Positions 34,302 through 62,595 of a stretch of 64,000 nt of DNA are shown in pieces (within the stretch, counting starts at the first letter, position 1; each line of letters starts with the position of its first letter). Origin of the DNA: Sphingomonas horti. GTDB taxonomy: Bacteria; Pseudomonadota; Alphaproteobacteria; Sphingomonadales; Sphingomonadaceae. The notes under the pieces were generated by a model. The model did no database searches. It was not told the origin of the DNA and saw nothing but the letters and a program-made list of their open reading frames with translations. A program made the position numbers and the translations under genes. The stretch is taken from contig NZ_WQMS01000008.1 of assembly GCF_009753715.1 (NCBI RefSeq), positions 1-64,000 on the forward strand, given 5' to 3'.

Positions 34302-34386
34302 CGTCACCCCGGGCTTGACCCGGGGTCCCGCTTCTTTTCTTGAGAGCAGAAGGAAAGCGGGATGCCGGATCAAGTCCGGCATGACG
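34302..34386. repeat. GTCATCCCGG-type inverted repeat (copy 1)
   Basis: Left arm CGTCACCCCGGGCTTGACCC and right arm ending GGATCAAGTCCGGCATGACG, 85 bases in all, with CCCGCTTC/GAAAGCGGG inner pairing. Same family as the arms of the GIY-YIG unit at 54244-54648 but with only a short centre. Confidence 0.85.
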
Positions 34387-34399
34387 AACGGAGATATTG

Positions 34400-37281: not shown

Positions 37282-37371
37282 CGTCACTGGCCTTGAGCCG
37301 GGGCTTACCTGCCTTCCTGGCGGGATCTCCGTCCCGAAGTAGGTGGGTCCCGGGTCAGGCCCGGGATGACG
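37282..37371. repeat. GTCATCCCGG-type inverted repeat (copy 2)
   Basis: Left arm CGTCACTGGCCTTGAGCCGG and right arm GGGTCCCGGGTCAGGCCCGG..GATGACG, 90 bases. Left and right arms have drifted apart but the ends and the AGGTGGGTCCCGG motif match other copies. Confidence 0.75.
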
Positions 37372-37385
37372 AAGCGGCGGCTCTC

Positions 37386-52068: not shown

Positions 52069-53607
52069 ATGACCGCAAACAAGCACGCCCTTTCCGTCAC
52101 GCGCACCGAGGACTTCGCCGCCTGGTACCAGGCCGTCATCGCCGAAGCCGACATGGCCGAGGAGTCGGGCGTGCGCGGGTGCATGGTGATCCGGCCGTGG
52201 GGATACGGCATCTGGGAGCGGATGCAGCGGCTGCTCGATGACGCGATCAAGGCGACGGGCCACGAGAATTGCTATTTCCCGCTGTTCATCCCCCTCTCGT
52301 ACTTCGAGAAGGAAGCCGAGCATGTGGAGGGCTTCGCCAAGGAGATGGCGGTCGTCACCCATCACCGGCTGAAGTCCGAGGGCGGCAAGCTGGTCGTCGA
52401 CCCGGAGGCGAAGCTGGAAGAGCCGCTGGTGGTGCGCCCGACCTCCGAGACGGTGATCGGCGCCGCTTTCTCCCGCTGGGTGCAGAGCTGGCGCGACCTG
52501 CCGGTGCTGATCAACCAATGGGCGAACGTGGTGCGCTGGGAAATGCGCACCCGCATGTTCCTGCGCACCGCCGAGTTCCTGTGGCAGGAAGGCCATACTG
52601 CCCACGCGAGCGAAGCGGAGGCGCGCGAGCACACGCTGCGCATGCTCGAAGTCTATCGCCGCTTCGCCGAGGACTGCGTCGCGATGCCGGTGATCGCGGG
52701 CGAGAAGCCGGAGAATGAACGCTTCCCGGGCGCCGTCGCCACCTACTCGATCGAGGCGATGATGCAGGACGGCAAAGCCTTGCAGGCCGGCACCTCGCAT
52801 TTCCTGGGCACGACCTTTGCCGAAGCGCAGAATATCCGCTTCCAGAACAAGGAAGGCGAGCTGGAGCTGGCGCAGACGACCAGCTGGGGCGTCTCAACCC
52901 GGATGATCGGCGGGCTGATCATGACGCACGGCGACGATGACGGGCTGCGCGTGCCGCCGCGCGTCGCGCCCTGGCAGGTGGTGATCGTGCCGATGTTGCG
53001 CGACACCGACGAGGACGCCGCGGTGCTCGACTATTGCCGCGCGCTGGCCGCCGAGCTGCAGGGCCAGAGCGCGCTGGGCGAACCGGTGCGGGCGCTGCTC
53101 GACGCGCGGCCGGCCAAGGCGGCGAACAAGCGCTGGGCCTGGGTGAAGAAAGGCGCGCCGATCATCGTCGAGGTCGGCCCGCGCGACATGGCCGGGGGCA
53201 ATGTCAGCGTGATCCGCCGCGACCGGCTGTACCAGGACAATGGCAAGCTCGCCTCCACGATCCAGCCGCGGGCGGAGTTCGTTGCAGCCGTGGGCACGCT
53301 GCTGGCCGAGATCCAGTCCGGCCTGTTCACCGAGGCAAAGGCGCGGCTGGACGCGAACATCAGGCGCGGCGTCACCGAGTTTGCGGAGCTGGAGCGCTTC
53401 TTCGAGACCGGCGGGCAATTCCCCGGCTGGGTCGAGGTCGAATGGTCGCGGCCGACCGGCGCTGAGCTGGAAGCGGTCGACCAGCGGCTGAAGGCACTGA
53501 AGCTGACGCTCCGCAACGTGCCGCAGGATGCGGCGCCGGCGACCGGCACCTGCGTCTTCATCGGCAGGCCGGCGGTCGAGCGGGTGCTGGTCGGCCGGAG
53601 CTATTAG
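52069..53607 (+). CDS. proS: Prolyl-tRNA synthetase (short, archaeal/eukaryotic-like form)
   Basis: A 512-residue class II synthetase. The catalytic motifs are in GCMVIRPWGYGIWERMQ, VVRPTSETVIGAAFSRWVQSWRDLPVLINQWANVVRWEMRTRMFLRTAEFLWQEGHTAH, and SHFLGTTFAEAQNIRFQN. The bacterial INS editing insertion is absent and the anticodon domain has the archaeal/eukaryotic-type layout (to GTCVFIGRPAVERVLVGRSY). This is the ProS form common in sphingomonads. It follows glpD by 10 bases. Confidence 0.95.
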   Translation: MTANKHALSVTRTEDFAAWYQAVIAEADMAEESGVRGCMVIRPWGYGIWERMQRLLDDAIKATGHENCYFPLFIPLSYFEKEAEHVEGFAKEMAVVTHHRLKSEGGKLVVDPEAKLEEPLVVRPTSETVIGAAFSRWVQSWRDLPVLINQWANVVRWEMRTRMFLRTAEFLWQEGHTAHASEAEAREHTLRMLEVYRRFAEDCVAMPVIAGEKPENERFPGAVATYSIEAMMQDGKALQAGTSHFLGTTFAEAQNIRFQNKEGELELAQTTSWGVSTRMIGGLIMTHGDDDGLRVPPRVAPWQVVIVPMLRDTDEDAAVLDYCRALAAELQGQSALGEPVRALLDARPAKAANKRWAWVKKGAPIIVEVGPRDMAGGNVSVIRRDRLYQDNGKLASTIQPRAEFVAAVGTLLAEIQSGLFTEAKARLDANIRRGVTEFAELERFFETGGQFPGWVEVEWSRPTGAELEAVDQRLKALKLTLRNVPQDAAPATGTCVFIGRPAVERVLVGRSY

Positions 53608-53613
53608 GGTGAC

Positions 53614-54189
53614 GTGAGCAGCGGCGATCCTCCTCCCGAACAGGCGCAGTGGCCGGACGGCGCGATCTTCACGGTCGGCCACTCGACCTTGCCGATCGCC
53701 GACTTCGCCGCGCTGCTGAAGACCTATGGCATCGCGCGGCTGGCCGACATCCGCACCGTGCCGCGATCGCGCCACAACCCGCAGTTCAACGCTGATGCCT
53801 TGTCGGACAGCCTTGCCGGGGAAGGCATCGTCTATGTCGCGATGCCGGCGCTGGGCGGGCTCAGGCACCCGCACCGGGATTCGCCCAACGCGGGTTGGCG
53901 GAACAAGAGCTTCCGCGGCTATGCCGATTACATGCAGACCGACGCGTTCCGCGACGCGGTCGACGCGCTGATCCGGATGGGGCGGGAGAAGCGCACCGCG
54001 ATCATGTGCGCCGAGGCAGTGCCGTGGCGCTGCCACCGCTCGCTGGTCGCCGACGCGCTGGACGTGCGCGGCGTGCCGGTGGTCGAGATCCTGTCCCCCA
54101 CCAGCTGGCGCATGCACGGCCTGACGCGGTTCGCGCATGTCGAGGGGGTGGAGATCACCTATCCGCCGGAGCAGCCGCGGTTGCTGTAG
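53614..54189 (+). CDS. DUF488 family protein
   Basis: A 191-residue cytoplasmic protein starting at GTG, six bases after proS. IFTVGHSTLPIADFAALLKTYGIARLADIRTVPRSRHNPQFN, LGGLRHPHRDSPN and CAEAVPWRCHRSLVADAL are typical of DUF488, which has a conserved Cys and His/Arg cluster but no established function. Confidence 0.88.
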   Translation: MSSGDPPPEQAQWPDGAIFTVGHSTLPIADFAALLKTYGIARLADIRTVPRSRHNPQFNADALSDSLAGEGIVYVAMPALGGLRHPHRDSPNAGWRNKSFRGYADYMQTDAFRDAVDALIRMGREKRTAIMCAEAVPWRCHRSLVADALDVRGVPVVEILSPTSWRMHGLTRFAHVEGVEITYPPEQPRLL

Positions 54190-54196
54190 AAGGAGG

Positions 54197-54224
54197 GGAG
54201 GTCCCGGCTCGAGGCCGGGTGACG
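54197..54224. repeat. Solitary right arm of a GTCATCCCGG-type repeat
   Basis: GGAGGTCCCGGCTCGAGGCC.. ending GGGTGACGG, just after the DUF488 stop, is a single diverged right arm of the same family as the arms of the GIY-YIG unit. It has no matching left arm and may be a remnant of an earlier element. Confidence 0.55.
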
Positions 54225-54243
54225 GTGGTGTGCGACACCCAAG

Positions 54244-54648
54244 TCGTCATCCCGGGCTTGACCCGGGACCTACCTTCTTCTTCCTTGCGGATGTGGAACG
54301 AACGCCGGCAGTCTACATCGTGACGAACACGTTGCACGGGACGCTGTATACCGGCGTCACCTCAAATTTGCCGGGTCGCATCTATCAGCATCGGAACGGA
54401 AGCTTTCGCGGCTTTACGGCCGAGCATGGCTGCAAGCGCCTCGTGTGGTTCGAGGTTCACCATTCGATGGAAGAAGCCATCGTTCGCGAAAAGCGCATCA
54501 AGCGGTGGTTACGCGATTGGAAGTACGCGCTGATCGAGGCGGAGAACCCAAGTTGGCGCGACCTGGCGGAAGATTTCGGGTTCGAACCTTTGCTGCGAAC
54601 GCCTGGCGCAGAAAAAAGGTAGGTCCCGGGTCAAGCCCGGGATGACGA
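54244..54648 (+). mobile_element. Putative mobile unit: GIY-YIG nuclease gene in 33-base perfect terminal inverted repeats
   Basis: Bases 54244-54276 and 54616-54648 are perfect inverse complements over 33 bases (outer sequence TCGTCATCCCGGGCTTGACC). They enclose one gene, a 109-residue GIY-YIG nuclease whose TAG stop lies inside the right arm. The arms match the dispersed inverted repeats at 34302, 37282, 59325, 61202 and 62497, which have only a short centre. No target-site duplication was recognised. The reading as an autonomous element with short non-autonomous relatives is inference. Confidence 0.65.
54293..54622 (+). CDS. GIY-YIG endonuclease-domain protein
   Basis: A 109-residue single-domain nuclease of the GIY-YIG (YhbQ/UPF0213-like) group. 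The GIY and YIG signatures appear as VYIVTN and LYTGVTSNL, the conserved Arg in GRIYQHRNG, then CKRLVWFEVHHSMEEAIVREKRIKRWLRDWK with the catalytic Glu, and AENPSWRDL. It starts at GTG 54293; the frame is open further into the left arm (reading RHPGLDPGPTFFFLAD), so part of the arm could be translated. The stop TAG (54620-54622) lies in the right arm. Confidence 0.85.
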   Translation: MERTPAVYIVTNTLHGTLYTGVTSNLPGRIYQHRNGSFRGFTAEHGCKRLVWFEVHHSMEEAIVREKRIKRWLRDWKYALIEAENPSWRDLAEDFGFEPLLRTPGAEKR

Positions 54649-54673
54649 GTGAGATGCGCGCAAAGATTCCGTT

Positions 54674-56116
54674 CTACTGGCCAAGCGGCAGCGGGCCGTT
54701 TGGGGTGGCGTCCAGCTGGGAGTCGCCGCCCAATGTGCGGTAGAGCTGGACCAGGTTCTGGAGCTTGACGAGGCGCGTCGAGGCGAGGGTGCGTTCGGCG
54801 CTGTAATAGCTGCGCTGGGCGATCAGCGTGTCGAGGAACGGATCGATGCCGCCGCGGAAGCGGGCTTCGCTCAAGCGGTAATTGTCCTCTGCGGCGGCGA
54901 AGAAGGCGGTCTGCGCGCGCAGCTGCTCGTCGATCGTGCCGCGGCGGGCGAGCGCGTCGGCGACTTCGCGGAAGGCGGTCTGGATCGCGCTTTCATATTG
55001 CGCGACCGCGGCGTCGCGTTGCGCCTGGGTCAGGCGCACATTGGCCCGGGCCGCGCCGCCCTGGAAGATCGAATAGCTCGCCTGCGGGCTGACCGACCAG
55101 TTGAAATTGCCTCCCGAGAACAGGCTCGACAGCGCGGTGCTGGCGAAGCCGAGCACGGCGGTGAGGCTGATGCGCGGGAACAGCTCGGCGCGGGCGGCGC
55201 CGATCTCGGCATTGGCGGCGCGCAGCTGGTATTCGGCCTGCACCACGTCCGGGCGGCGAAGCAACACGGTCGAATCTAGGCCGGCGGGAAGCTCGGCGAC
55301 GCTGCCGGTGACTTCGGCAAGCGAGGCGGGGAGCAGGGCGGGATCGACCGGCGCGCCGACCAGCAGCTGCAGCAGGTTCACGTCCTGGGCGAGGTCGGTG
55401 CGCGCCTGCGCGACATCGGCGCGCGCCTGTTCCAGCGTCTGCTCGGCCTGGCGCAGGTCGGTGCGCGGGGCGATGCCGCCGTTCAGGCGGGCGCGGGTCA
55501 GTTCGACCGAGCGCTGCGCCGAGGCGACGGTGCGCTCGCCGATCGCGAGCAGGTCCTTGTCGGCGGCATAGGTGAACCAGGCATTGGCGATGTCGCCGAC
55601 CAGCGTCAGCCGCGTCGCGCGTGCGCCCGCCTCGGTCGCGAAATAGCGGTTCTGCGCGGCTTCGGAGAGCCCGCGGATGCGGCCGAACAGGTCGAGCTCG
55701 AACGCAGTGATGCCGCCCTGGACGCTGAACGTGGTGCGGCGGCCGGAGGCGGCGTTGCCGATCCCGCTGCCGGCGCCGCTGCCGCGATCGGCCTCGGTAT
55801 AGGTGGCGTTGGCGCCGACCTCCGGCAGGATGTTCGCGCGCTGGATGCGGTATTGCTCACGCGCGGCGGCGATGTTGGCGGCGGCGAGGCGGAGGTCGCG
55901 GTTGTTGGCGAGCGCGTCTTCGATGATCCGCTGCAGCCGCGCATCGCGGAAAATGTCGCGATAGGTGACGGCGGGCAGCCCCGCCTCGGACTGGCGCAGA
56001 TAGGCGTCGCCGACCGGCCAGGATTGCGGCACCGGCGGCGCCGGGCGCTGGTAAGGCGGCACCATCGAGCAGGCCGACAGGCTCGCCATGAGCGCCAGGG
56101 TGAGCGTGCGCTTCAT
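54674..56116 (-). CDS. RND efflux outer-membrane factor (OprM/NodT family lipoprotein)
   Basis: A 480-residue outer-membrane channel. Lipoprotein signal LTLALMASLSACS (Cys about residue 16), then two repeats of the outer-membrane efflux (OEP) domain (about 60-250 and 270-470), with FELDLFGRIRGLSEAAQNRYFAT and VQAEYQLRAANAEIGAARAELFPRISLT typical of NodT. It is the exit duct for the pump. The ATG overlaps the stop of the RND gene (ATGA). Confidence 0.94.
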   Translation of the reverse strand: MKRTLTLALMASLSACSMVPPYQRPAPPVPQSWPVGDAYLRQSEAGLPAVTYRDIFRDARLQRIIEDALANNRDLRLAAANIAAAREQYRIQRANILPEVGANATYTEADRGSGAGSGIGNAASGRRTTFSVQGGITAFELDLFGRIRGLSEAAQNRYFATEAGARATRLTLVGDIANAWFTYAADKDLLAIGERTVASAQRSVELTRARLNGGIAPRTDLRQAEQTLEQARADVAQARTDLAQDVNLLQLLVGAPVDPALLPASLAEVTGSVAELPAGLDSTVLLRRPDVVQAEYQLRAANAEIGAARAELFPRISLTAVLGFASTALSSLFSGGNFNWSVSPQASYSIFQGGAARANVRLTQAQRDAAVAQYESAIQTAFREVADALARRGTIDEQLRAQTAFFAAAEDNYRLSEARFRGGIDPFLDTLIAQRSYYSAERTLASTRLVKLQNLVQLYRTLGGDSQLDATPNGPLPLGQ

Positions 56117-59324: not shown

Positions 59325-59408
59325 CGTCACCCCGGACTTGATCCGGGGCCTGCCTGCCTTCGAAAACCGAAGGAAGAAGGTGGGTCCCGGCTCAAGGCCG
59401 GGATGACG
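59325..59408. repeat. GTCATCCCGG-type inverted repeat (copy 4)
   Basis: Left arm CGTCACCCCGGACTTGATCC and right arm GGGTCCCGGCTCAAGGCC..GATGACG, 84 bases, with CTTCG/CGAAG centre. It lies between the MFP and RND genes of the efflux operon and could set their relative expression. Confidence 0.85.
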
Positions 59409-59429
59409 AAGGGGAGCGGCGGGCAAGGC

Positions 59430-61201: not shown

Positions 61202-61256
61202 CGTCACCCCGCGCGGTGTGGGAAGAAGGCCGGTCCCGGGTCAAGCCCGGATGACG
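61202..61256. repeat. GTCATCCCGG-type inverted repeat (copy 5, short)
   Basis: A shortened copy: CGTCACCCCGCGC left end, right arm GGTCCCGGGTCAAGCCCGG ATGACG. It fills the gap between the phosphodiesterase stop and the MaoC start. Confidence 0.7.
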
Positions 61257-61257
61257 A

Positions 61258-62595
61258 TCAGGGGCGTTTCAGCGTCCGCGAGAAGGTGGCGATCGTCCCG
61301 TCGCCGGGATTGGCCTTCACGCCGGCGATCCGCGCGATCAGCGGATAGACGTCGACATTGTCGAAGGCCGCCACGCGCTGGCCGGCGCGGAAGGCCGGGC
61401 CGCTGGCGATGAACAGCGCGGCCATTTCGCGCGCGCGCGGATCATAGCCATGGGCGCCGCCGGTGCGCGGGCGCTCGGCGGTCGTCTTGCGGATCGTCCA
61501 GCCGCTATCGGCCAGGCACTGGTAGGGCGGGACGCGCGGATTGGCGCCGTAATGCAGCGCCGCCGGGAGGTCCGCCTTCTTCATGCAGCGGACATGATCG
61601 TGCGGCTTGAAAAGGGCGGCCTCGAGCGCGGCCTCGCGCCCCGGCACCGCGAACAGCGATGCGTAGGGGCCGGTCTCCAGCACCCGGTAGTCGGCCGGAT
61701 TCGCGAGCTGGTCCATCGGGATCGAGCGGTCGGCGCTGATCGGCGCCATGCCGTGGTCGGCGACGATCACCAGATTCGCGGGCTGGCCGAGCGCGGCGAG
61801 CCCGGCGCGCAGCCTGCCGATCGCCGCATCGACGTCGCGCACCGCCTCGGTCGTGCGCGGATCGTCCGGGCCATATTCATGGCCGGCGGCGTCGACCTCG
61901 TCGAAATACAGCGTGACCAGCTTCGGCCGGATCGCGGCCGGGCGGCGCAGCCAGTCGAGCACCGCGTTCACCCGCTGCTCGTCGGTCACATAGCCGCTGA
62001 ACTGCTGCCAGTCGGCGGGGCGCACGCCGCCTTCGAACGGCGTATGAAAGCGATTGGCCTTGTGCCCGCCCCAGGTGACGTTGGAGCCGGGCCAGAACAT
62101 CGTGGCGGTGCGGATGCCCTGCTTCTCGGCGCTCACCCAGATCGGCTCCGCCTCGTTCCACCAGAACGGGTCCTCGCTCGCCATGGTGAAGATCTCGCCG
62201 GGCCGGCGCGGGTCTTCCATCATGTTGCCGACGATGCCGTTGCGGTCGGGGCGCCTGCCGGTGACGAGCGTCCAGTGGTTCGGAAAGGTCAGCGAAGGGT
62301 AGGACGGCCGCATCGGCCCGGTGACGCCGGCCTTCGCCAGCGCCGACAGCGTGGGGCTGGCGCCGCGATCCAGATAATCGGCGCGGAACCCGTCGATCGA
62401 GATCAGGATCGTGACGGGCGGCCGCACCGGCGCGCGCTTCGCCTTCGCCGGCGCGGCGGACGGGAGGAGCAAGGCGAGGAGGGCCGCGACCAATATCGTC
62501 ACCCCGGCCTTGAGCCGGGGCCTGCCTTCTTGTCGGTTGCGTGGAAGGGAGAAGGTGGGTCCCGGATCAAGTCCGGGATGACGATCGCTTTGCAT
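61258..62595 (-). CDS. Exported type I phosphodiesterase/nucleotide pyrophosphatase
   Basis: An alkaline-phosphatase-superfamily enzyme of the NPP group. The metal and nucleophile motifs are LISIDGFRADYLDRGASPTLSALAKAGV and SYPSLTFPNHWTLVTGRRPDRNGIVGNMM (nucleophile Thr in TFPNHW), with LYFDEVDAAGHEYGPDD and VIVADHGMAPI completing the site. Signal peptide VTILVAALLALLLPSAAPAKA. The start is uncertain: ATG 62595 gives a 31-residue leader encoded by a repeat (reading RHPGLDPGPTF) that supplies the positive N-region; GTG 62502, within the repeat, gives a bare signal. Confidence 0.85.
   Translation of the reverse strand: MQSDRHPGLDPGPTFSLPRNRQEGRPRLKAGVTILVAALLALLLPSAAPAKAKRAPVRPPVTILISIDGFRADYLDRGASPTLSALAKAGVTGPMRPSYPSLTFPNHWTLVTGRRPDRNGIVGNMMEDPRRPGEIFTMASEDPFWWNEAEPIWVSAEKQGIRTATMFWPGSNVTWGGHKANRFHTPFEGGVRPADWQQFSGYVTDEQRVNAVLDWLRRPAAIRPKLVTLYFDEVDAAGHEYGPDDPRTTEAVRDVDAAIGRLRAGLAALGQPANLVIVADHGMAPISADRSIPMDQLANPADYRVLETGPYASLFAVPGREAALEAALFKPHDHVRCMKKADLPAALHYGANPRVPPYQCLADSGWTIRKTTAERPRTGGAHGYDPRAREMAALFIASGPAFRAGQRVAAFDNVDVYPLIARIAGVKANPGDGTIATFSRTLKRP
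62497..62583. repeat. GTCATCCCGG-type inverted repeat (copy 6)
   Basis: Left arm CGTCACCCCGGCCTTGAGCC and right arm GGGTCCCGGATCAAGTCC..GATGACG, 87 bases (29 codons). It overlaps the 5-prime end of the phosphodiesterase gene, providing either its start codon or an N-terminal leader. Confidence 0.85.

Follow-up and report, generated by a model that had tools for sequence, protein, structure and literature searches.

The window, by which we mean the whole analysed stretch of 64,000 nucleotides, belongs to a 3.35-Mb genome assembled in 25 contigs and holds a small nuclease gene enclosed by two copies of a repeat. A preliminary description of this DNA had placed a 109-residue GIY-YIG gene within perfect 33-base inverted arms, with its stop codon in the right arm, and both statements proved correct. 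Namely, the left arm, at 54244-54276 (+ strand), and the right arm, at 54616-54648 (- strand), match as inverted copies over 33 bp with 0 mismatches (arm sequence, TCGTCATCCCGGGCTTGACCCGGGACCTACCTT), and the 109-aa frame, at 54293-54622 (+ strand), runs from a GTG start at 54293 to a TAG at 54620-54622, so that the gene ends inside the right arm. The assignment of this gene draws on the open reading frame, the Pfam match, the alignment and the AlphaFold2 model; the GIY-YIG profile PF01541 was the sole Pfam match, and it matches the longer ORF that contains the 109-aa frame (E 2.3e-15).

As judged from the perfect match and from the fold, the left arm is made of a CGTC-tagged REP plus 8 inner bases, and the right arm is the identical REP; in each of them the CGTC tag is unpaired and lies on the outer side. 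A single arm folds into a 7-bp stem with a 5-nt loop (z -3.5). Five matches to the arm with at most 3 mismatches were found in the window, against a mean of 0.00 in 100 dinucleotide shuffles, and the 405-bp unit, when used as query, gave 87 matches in the whole genome, mostly of about 30 to 45 bases, that is, arms. What had been described as a lone arm at 54197 is present, and on reading the sequence we correct it to a lone REP at 54197-54224 (- strand), which adjoins the left arm.

As a separate observation, proS, a DUF488 gene and an efflux gene, which are adjacent in the window (52069-54700), lie apart in genome G001 (loci L126, L128, L133 and L134). Therefore, a rearrangement breakpoint adjoins the element, and the lone REP also sits at this breakpoint, beside the element.

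Dispersed REP pairs in the window

The dispersed palindromes of the window consist of two facing REPs with their CGTC tags outward and a spacer that is partly self-pairing, a head-to-head arrangement as in the CGTC REP superfamily. Gene-less REP pairs occur at 34302-34387, where both REPs fit the pattern with 0 mismatches and the fold has a z of -6.9, and at 59325-59409 and 62497-62584, both recognized by fold, arm comparison and pattern match; the three pairs that were folded (34302, 59325 and 62497) reach z -6.5 to -6.9, spacer included. An 8-bp stem was read by eye in the sibling REP at 34361-34385. At 37282-37372 the left REP is degenerate, and the right REP has 3/33 mismatches to the nuclease arm, while a short degenerate REP pair at 61202-61256 was recognized by reading the sequence. 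The same arms as those of the nuclease had been reported at these five places; the palindromes are indeed there, but their arms are similar rather than identical to the nuclease arm, the closest having 3 mismatches of 33, and at 37282 and 61202 one arm is degenerate in each. To judge by their sequences, the dispersed REP pairs look like the nuclease unit minus its gene. G000 and G001 both have the pair at 59325, and the corresponding positions of G004 and G005 showed none.

The enzyme

The 109-aa protein has the GIY-YIG core with its catalytic residues. Across 32 aligned sequences Y8, Y19, R29, H33, E66 and N85 are invariant; AlphaFold2 run on these sequences reached a pLDDT of 90.8, and a profile of the same 32 finds the UPF0213 proteins 1zg2 (E 3.5e-9) and 1ywl. 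The nearest structures are 1zg2, SLX1 proteins, UvrC and I-TevI, all of them GIY-YIG, with Z from 6.8 to about 5; this fold search is weak when taken alone, its best Foldseek E being 3.2e-3 and its best Z 6.8. N85, which may correspond to the Asn of UvrC and I-TevI, is invariant in the nucleases of clade A, defined below, and does not figure among the invariant residues listed for clade B. According to the titles of their structure entries, SLX1 enzymes process branched DNA, and a hairpin or cruciform target therefore fits; we infer that such an activity may extend to REPs.

Inverted arms around GIY-YIG genes of other genomes

Loci elsewhere were given an arm score, namely, that of the best ungapped inverted repeat between upstream and downstream DNA (match +1, mismatch -2), with sites of equal geometry at shifted positions of the same loci as control. 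This sequence-neutral score was preferred over a strict hairpin pattern, which failed on most arms, those of the window among them. Seventy family loci, the first 30 and the next 40 listed, were chosen blind to outcome: 54/70 score at least 18, against 4/550 shifted sites, and 61/70 score at least 14, against 6/550. Thus, the association between GIY-YIG genes and arms, which the preliminary description had proposed to look for beyond this locus, is present in the family and, as shown below, across phyla; as to its question whether such genes are always flanked, inverted repeats flank these 54 loci, but 9/70 score below 14.

Within the genus, sampled by six genomes, 12/12 further nuclease loci, counting that of the window, have scores of 20 to 47 and two weak matches have 18 and 10, while 6/6 UvrC loci score 8 to 10, with 0/6 reaching 18. 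Other ORFs of the fetched loci reach 18 in 2/186 and 4/322 cases, and those with gaps of at least 60 bases on both sides do so in 0/68 and 4/124. One locus (L108, G004:C27:169658-169774) is a decayed nuclease remnant that has kept matching arms, with a score of 18.

A scan of named loci took one genome per species; 577 loci were confirmed, of which the scan covered 80, and 79 of these were scored, the remaining one having too short a flank. The loci listed include Sphingomonas, Caulobacter, Rhizobium, Dyella, Lysobacter, Neisseria, Nitrospinae, Chloroflexi and others, and Sphingomonads lead among the named protein relatives listed. Across several phyla, 44/79 of these loci score at least 18, against 0/715 shifted sites, and 54/79 at least 14, against 6/715; the other 25/79 score below 14, and the Rhizobium tumorigenes copy, with a score of 7, has no arms. 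On pNL2 of Novosphingobium aromaticivorans DSM 12444, by contrast, the copy (L223) has arms that match over 29 bp. The tag of the upstream arm points outward in 74 of the 98 loci scoring at least 18 and inward in 9, and was not assigned in 15. Our statistical tests take genomes and loci as independent.

Nuclease groups and their arms

Two groups of nucleases were defined by sequence motifs, A by VYILAS..GTLYIGVTSNL and B by FWTYILRCADGSYYVGHTDNL, and their arms are of two kinds: CGTC-type arms accompany A genes and arms with a GAGC..TCGA core accompany B genes. Arms were typed with a regular expression that was composed with the arms already in view; by this measure, the first arm is of the kind that goes with the nuclease group in 73/73 armed loci and both arms are in 70/73, the second arm being otherwise typed or untyped in 3.

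Protein identity and arm similarity were compared for the loci with an arm score of at least 14 (73/88), which left out 9 loci of nucleases and 6 of UvrC; L045, a B gene interrupted by a stop, stood in A for the within-group correlations and was moved by hand to B for arm typing. Between genomes the correlation is 0.51 (73 loci, 2577 pairs); when arms are shuffled among paralogs of one genome it averages 0.13 and peaks at 0.32, 0/1000 shuffles reaching 0.51. The same holds within A (0.33 vs 0.19 in shuffles; 0/1000) and within B (0.38 vs 0.17; 3/1000). Since the correlation exceeds the within-genome shuffles, the arms track the nuclease and not merely the host genome. Single genomes can hold several nucleases with different arms.

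REP number and GIY-YIG gene number

The 119 family genomes, in which we counted REPs of three patterns, hold 0 to about 300 of these and 1 to 10 PF01541 genes. PF01541 is present in 119/119, and in 29 of them as one copy, presumably UvrC. These single-copy genomes have a median of 2 REPs and a maximum of 18, against a median of 40.5 in the other 90, and of the genomes with at least 40 REPs, 46/46 carry two or more PF01541 genes. REP number and PF01541 copies are correlated over the 119 genomes, taken as independent (Spearman 0.73; Mann-Whitney p 7e-12). Fifteen of the 90 genomes with extra PF01541 genes have at most 5 REPs of the counted patterns.

In a phylum sample of 397 genomes, where REP-rich means at least 10 copies of one CGTC pattern, a clade A nuclease (E 1e-15) was found in 21/28 REP-rich genomes vs 93/369 others (Fisher 1.8e-7). 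The remaining 7/28 are without such a nuclease at E 1e-15: four have only one PF01541 match, in a long, UvrC-like frame of about 600 to 710 aa, and three have an additional short gene that lacks REP arms (scores 7 to 9), one of these with only 162 bases upstream. REPs can thus exist without a recognisable partner.

Gain, loss, inversion and age at shared sites

Megaplasmids of Sphingobium sp. Tom have a common site between fnrL and a response-regulator gene. The full element occupies this site in MM7A, MM15, TYG46 and TYG73, which were aligned, with the nuclease gene of TYG73 frameshifted; TYG42, TYG43 and TYG71 match MM7A at 100 percent across the whole query. In TYG64 the site holds a single palindrome in which the outer left half-arm is joined to the outer right half-arm, a structure that TYG74 has in altered form; TYG65 has a different palindrome, and no REP was seen in TYG72. 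The site therefore provides the comparison with and without the unit that had been called for, in full, fused and empty states, and the earlier notion of internally deleted relatives gains support from a place that holds either the full element or only the fused palindrome.

Genome G001 carries the whole element, at 82 percent DNA identity, beside the same efflux gene as in the window, inverted and with other neighbours on the far side. At the efflux-gene site of G005 there is a REP pair of another sequence, and no REP was seen in the bases adjoining the efflux gene of G004, whose flank beyond this gene is not syntenic with the others; the states of G001 and G005 were read directly from the sequences, the G001/G005 alignment being poor. 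In both Sphingobium and the genus, what differs has been gained or lost at fixed places. The compared sites of both have flanks too diverged for a target duplication to be read, and none was seen; a search there for precise insertion junctions gave no clean one. In 49-kb Sphingobium stretches from five plasmid pairs, one REP pair of the second kind is present in MM7A and absent from MM15, again with no clean junction. A Sinorhizobium trio (L222, L231 and L232) offered no empty site, all three carrying the gene; the nuclease is flanked there by mosaic repeat units of another sequence, the number of which varies between strains, and the length difference consists of extra repeat units.

At two sites the orientation of the nuclease cassette to its neighbours is reversed from one genome to another, namely, in L094 when compared with the window (54243-54649), and in L071, a clade A locus, when compared with L062, L064, L083, L085 and L086. 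Both look as if the cassette had flipped between its inverted arms.

For the nuclease gene of G000 and G001 we obtained a dN/dS of 0.036, with dS, at 1.9, near saturation. A homologous neighbour within 1.5 kb was found in 129/851 between-genome pairs of clade B, 26/766 of clade A and 15/15 of UvrC; since part of the loci lie at sites common to genera, the gene itself, if it moves, does so slowly. Matches to the gene occur in 31/72,556 plasmid records, several of them chromosome-sized, and in 0/50,697 phage records. Purifying selection, shared sites, few plasmid matches and no phage matches together point to the element being a slow resident. RAYTs, too, are held to be slow and resident.

Clade B nucleases often lie upstream of a gene that is trmJ-like by its motifs (L022, L024, L031, L046, L034 and others); 7/36 armed and 4/6 armless clade B loci are at this site. 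Arm similarity at the trmJ-like site is 0.70 within loci and 0.56 between them (10/14 loci, p 0.0015), as measured with a noisy arm finder, and we place no reliance on this difference. In some clade B genes of this site the upstream arm is lost, and the frame runs through a translated REP.

Interpretation

We read the unit of the window as an intact member of a widespread class of REP systems, in which an SLX1-like GIY-YIG nuclease lies between inverted REPs of its own kind and the dispersed pairs are its gene-less relatives (probability about 0.65). The partnership between GIY-YIG nucleases and REPs is well supported. It is likely, at slightly better than even odds, that the enzyme moves the REPs, and we infer that the nuclease may drive their spread. 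In its broadest form, which we consider about an even bet, the proposal is that a new class of enzymes, stand-alone SLX1-like GIY-YIG nucleases that co-evolve with their hairpins, mobilises the CGTC REPs (Neisseria dRS3 included) and the second REP kind of Sphingomonads, both of which would be mobile DNA.

In the mechanism that we propose, the nuclease would recognise the REP hairpin or cruciform in single-stranded or torsionally stressed DNA and nick it at a fixed place, after which host replication or repair would copy or lose the REP-bounded stretch. No GIY-YIG enzyme is known to rejoin DNA; therefore, host enzymes would have to seal the product. The outcomes would be that short REP pairs spread, that full units collapse to bare palindromes and that the cassette inverts between its arms. 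Such an element would be slow and mostly inherited vertically, like RAYTs, and no fast transposon.

The nuclease gene might instead be a homing parasite: something else would spread the REPs, and the gene would multiply by cutting REP pairs that have no gene and being copied between their two REPs. It is for homing that GIY-YIG nucleases are best known (Dunin-Horkawicz et al. 2006, PMC1564403); moreover, the gene occupies the spacer of a REP pair, the fused palindrome of TYG64 could be an uninvaded site and some REP-rich genomes are without the gene. We nevertheless regard this as unlikely: that 0/46 family genomes with at least 40 REPs have a single PF01541 copy is unexpected for a mere passenger, and efficient homing should fill more pairs than 1 to 10 PF01541 genes would suggest against up to at least 290 REPs.

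Alternatively, the nuclease could serve the host in maintaining its genome by processing REP hairpins or cruciforms, stay near its substrate through selection or feedback and spread nothing; this would agree with the SLX1-like fold, the strong purifying selection, the sites conserved between genera (for instance, the trmJ-like site of clade B) and the scarcity of the gene in plasmid and phage records. It leaves unexplained, however, why the gene lies between inverted copies of its own repeat kind, why one site differs in state among close plasmids and why a genome has several nucleases with different arms, and we consider it just as improbable as homing. Mere coincidence, by which abundant intergenic REPs would often flank any small gene, could appeal to the 0 to about 300 REPs per family genome; it is very improbable, given how rarely other ORFs of the same loci, gapped ones included, reach the threshold, and given that the match between arm and nuclease survives shuffling inside genomes.

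Relation to known systems

The GIY-YIG domain is used by mobile DNA, namely, by homing endonucleases such as I-TevI and by Penelope elements; unlike these, the 109-aa protein comes without intron, further domain or reverse transcriptase, and its unit has REP ends. Inverted ends are common to the unit and to classical IS elements and MITEs; no target duplication was seen with them at the sites compared, but the flanks there have diverged.

REPtrons, as set out by Di Nocera et al. 2013 (PMC3733652), combine a RAYT gene, which encodes an HUH/IS200-like transposase and has GTAG REPs on its flanks, with dispersed REPs and REPINs. They share with our unit a small enzyme gene between inverted REPs, the same REP in dispersed pairs, enzyme-specific REP kinds and stable residence. 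The unit has a GIY-YIG nuclease, however, and no HUH/Y1 transposase, and its repeats are of CGTC or GAGC..TCGA kind, whereas REPtron REPs are GTAG-tagged. It thus works like a REPtron by its logic and is not a RAYT system by its enzyme and tag, and the likeness to RAYT/REP logic with a different enzyme, drawn at the outset, fits.

The CGTC REP family of the same survey includes Neisseria dRS3 and Rickettsia RPE-4 and RPE-6, and has in common with our repeats the CGTC tag, the hairpin, the tags-outward pairs and an alphaproteobacterial bias; its stems are of 8 or 9 bp with loops of 4 or 5 nt, against 7 bp and 5 nt in the window arm. According to PMC3733652, these REPs "apparently lack a dedicated transposase", RAYTs in species with CGTC REPs are not flanked by CGTC repeats and the CGTC enzyme may have been lost early or replaced; no enzyme gene is linked to the repeats there, whereas a nuclease is linked to them here. 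GIY-YIG is not mentioned in the text of PMC3733652, nor in the available part of RepRanger 2025 (PMC12306157), and no report linking GIY-YIG nucleases to REPs was found in the open-licence literature, preprints lying outside its scope. As far as could be found, a class of GIY-YIG REP systems is so far unreported.

Minimal bacterial GIY-YIG proteins are placed together with Slx1 by Dunin-Horkawicz et al. 2006 (PMC1564403), in a group that is predicted to act in DNA repair and is described without the C-terminal Asn. Of such proteins, they report one as a recent insertion into an HsdR gene and one as fused to a SPOUT methyltransferase, which the trmJ-like site of clade B resembles, and it is asked there if further members are molecular parasites. 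The UPF0213 group (1zg2, 1ywl) is alike in being a single GIY-YIG domain of about 100 residues and gives the best profile and fold matches; it has no linked repeat in that paper and is described as lacking the C-terminal Asn, whereas clade A has the invariant N85, a possible equivalent of that Asn.

Among bacterial repeats REPs are common; their CGTC half was left without an enzyme in the 2013 survey (PMC3733652), and a small, specific and testable candidate makes the question of their mobiliser answerable. If our reading is true, many proteins annotated only as GIY-YIG nucleases would be given a function, and evolution would have reached the REP way of life with two enzymes that are unrelated, HUH and GIY-YIG.

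Finally, a 2.17 Mb record of Neisseria gonorrhoeae that is filed as a plasmid (L221) carries a nuclease 68 percent identical to that of L067, and this nuclease lies within CGTC-type repeats that are dRS3-like by their motif.
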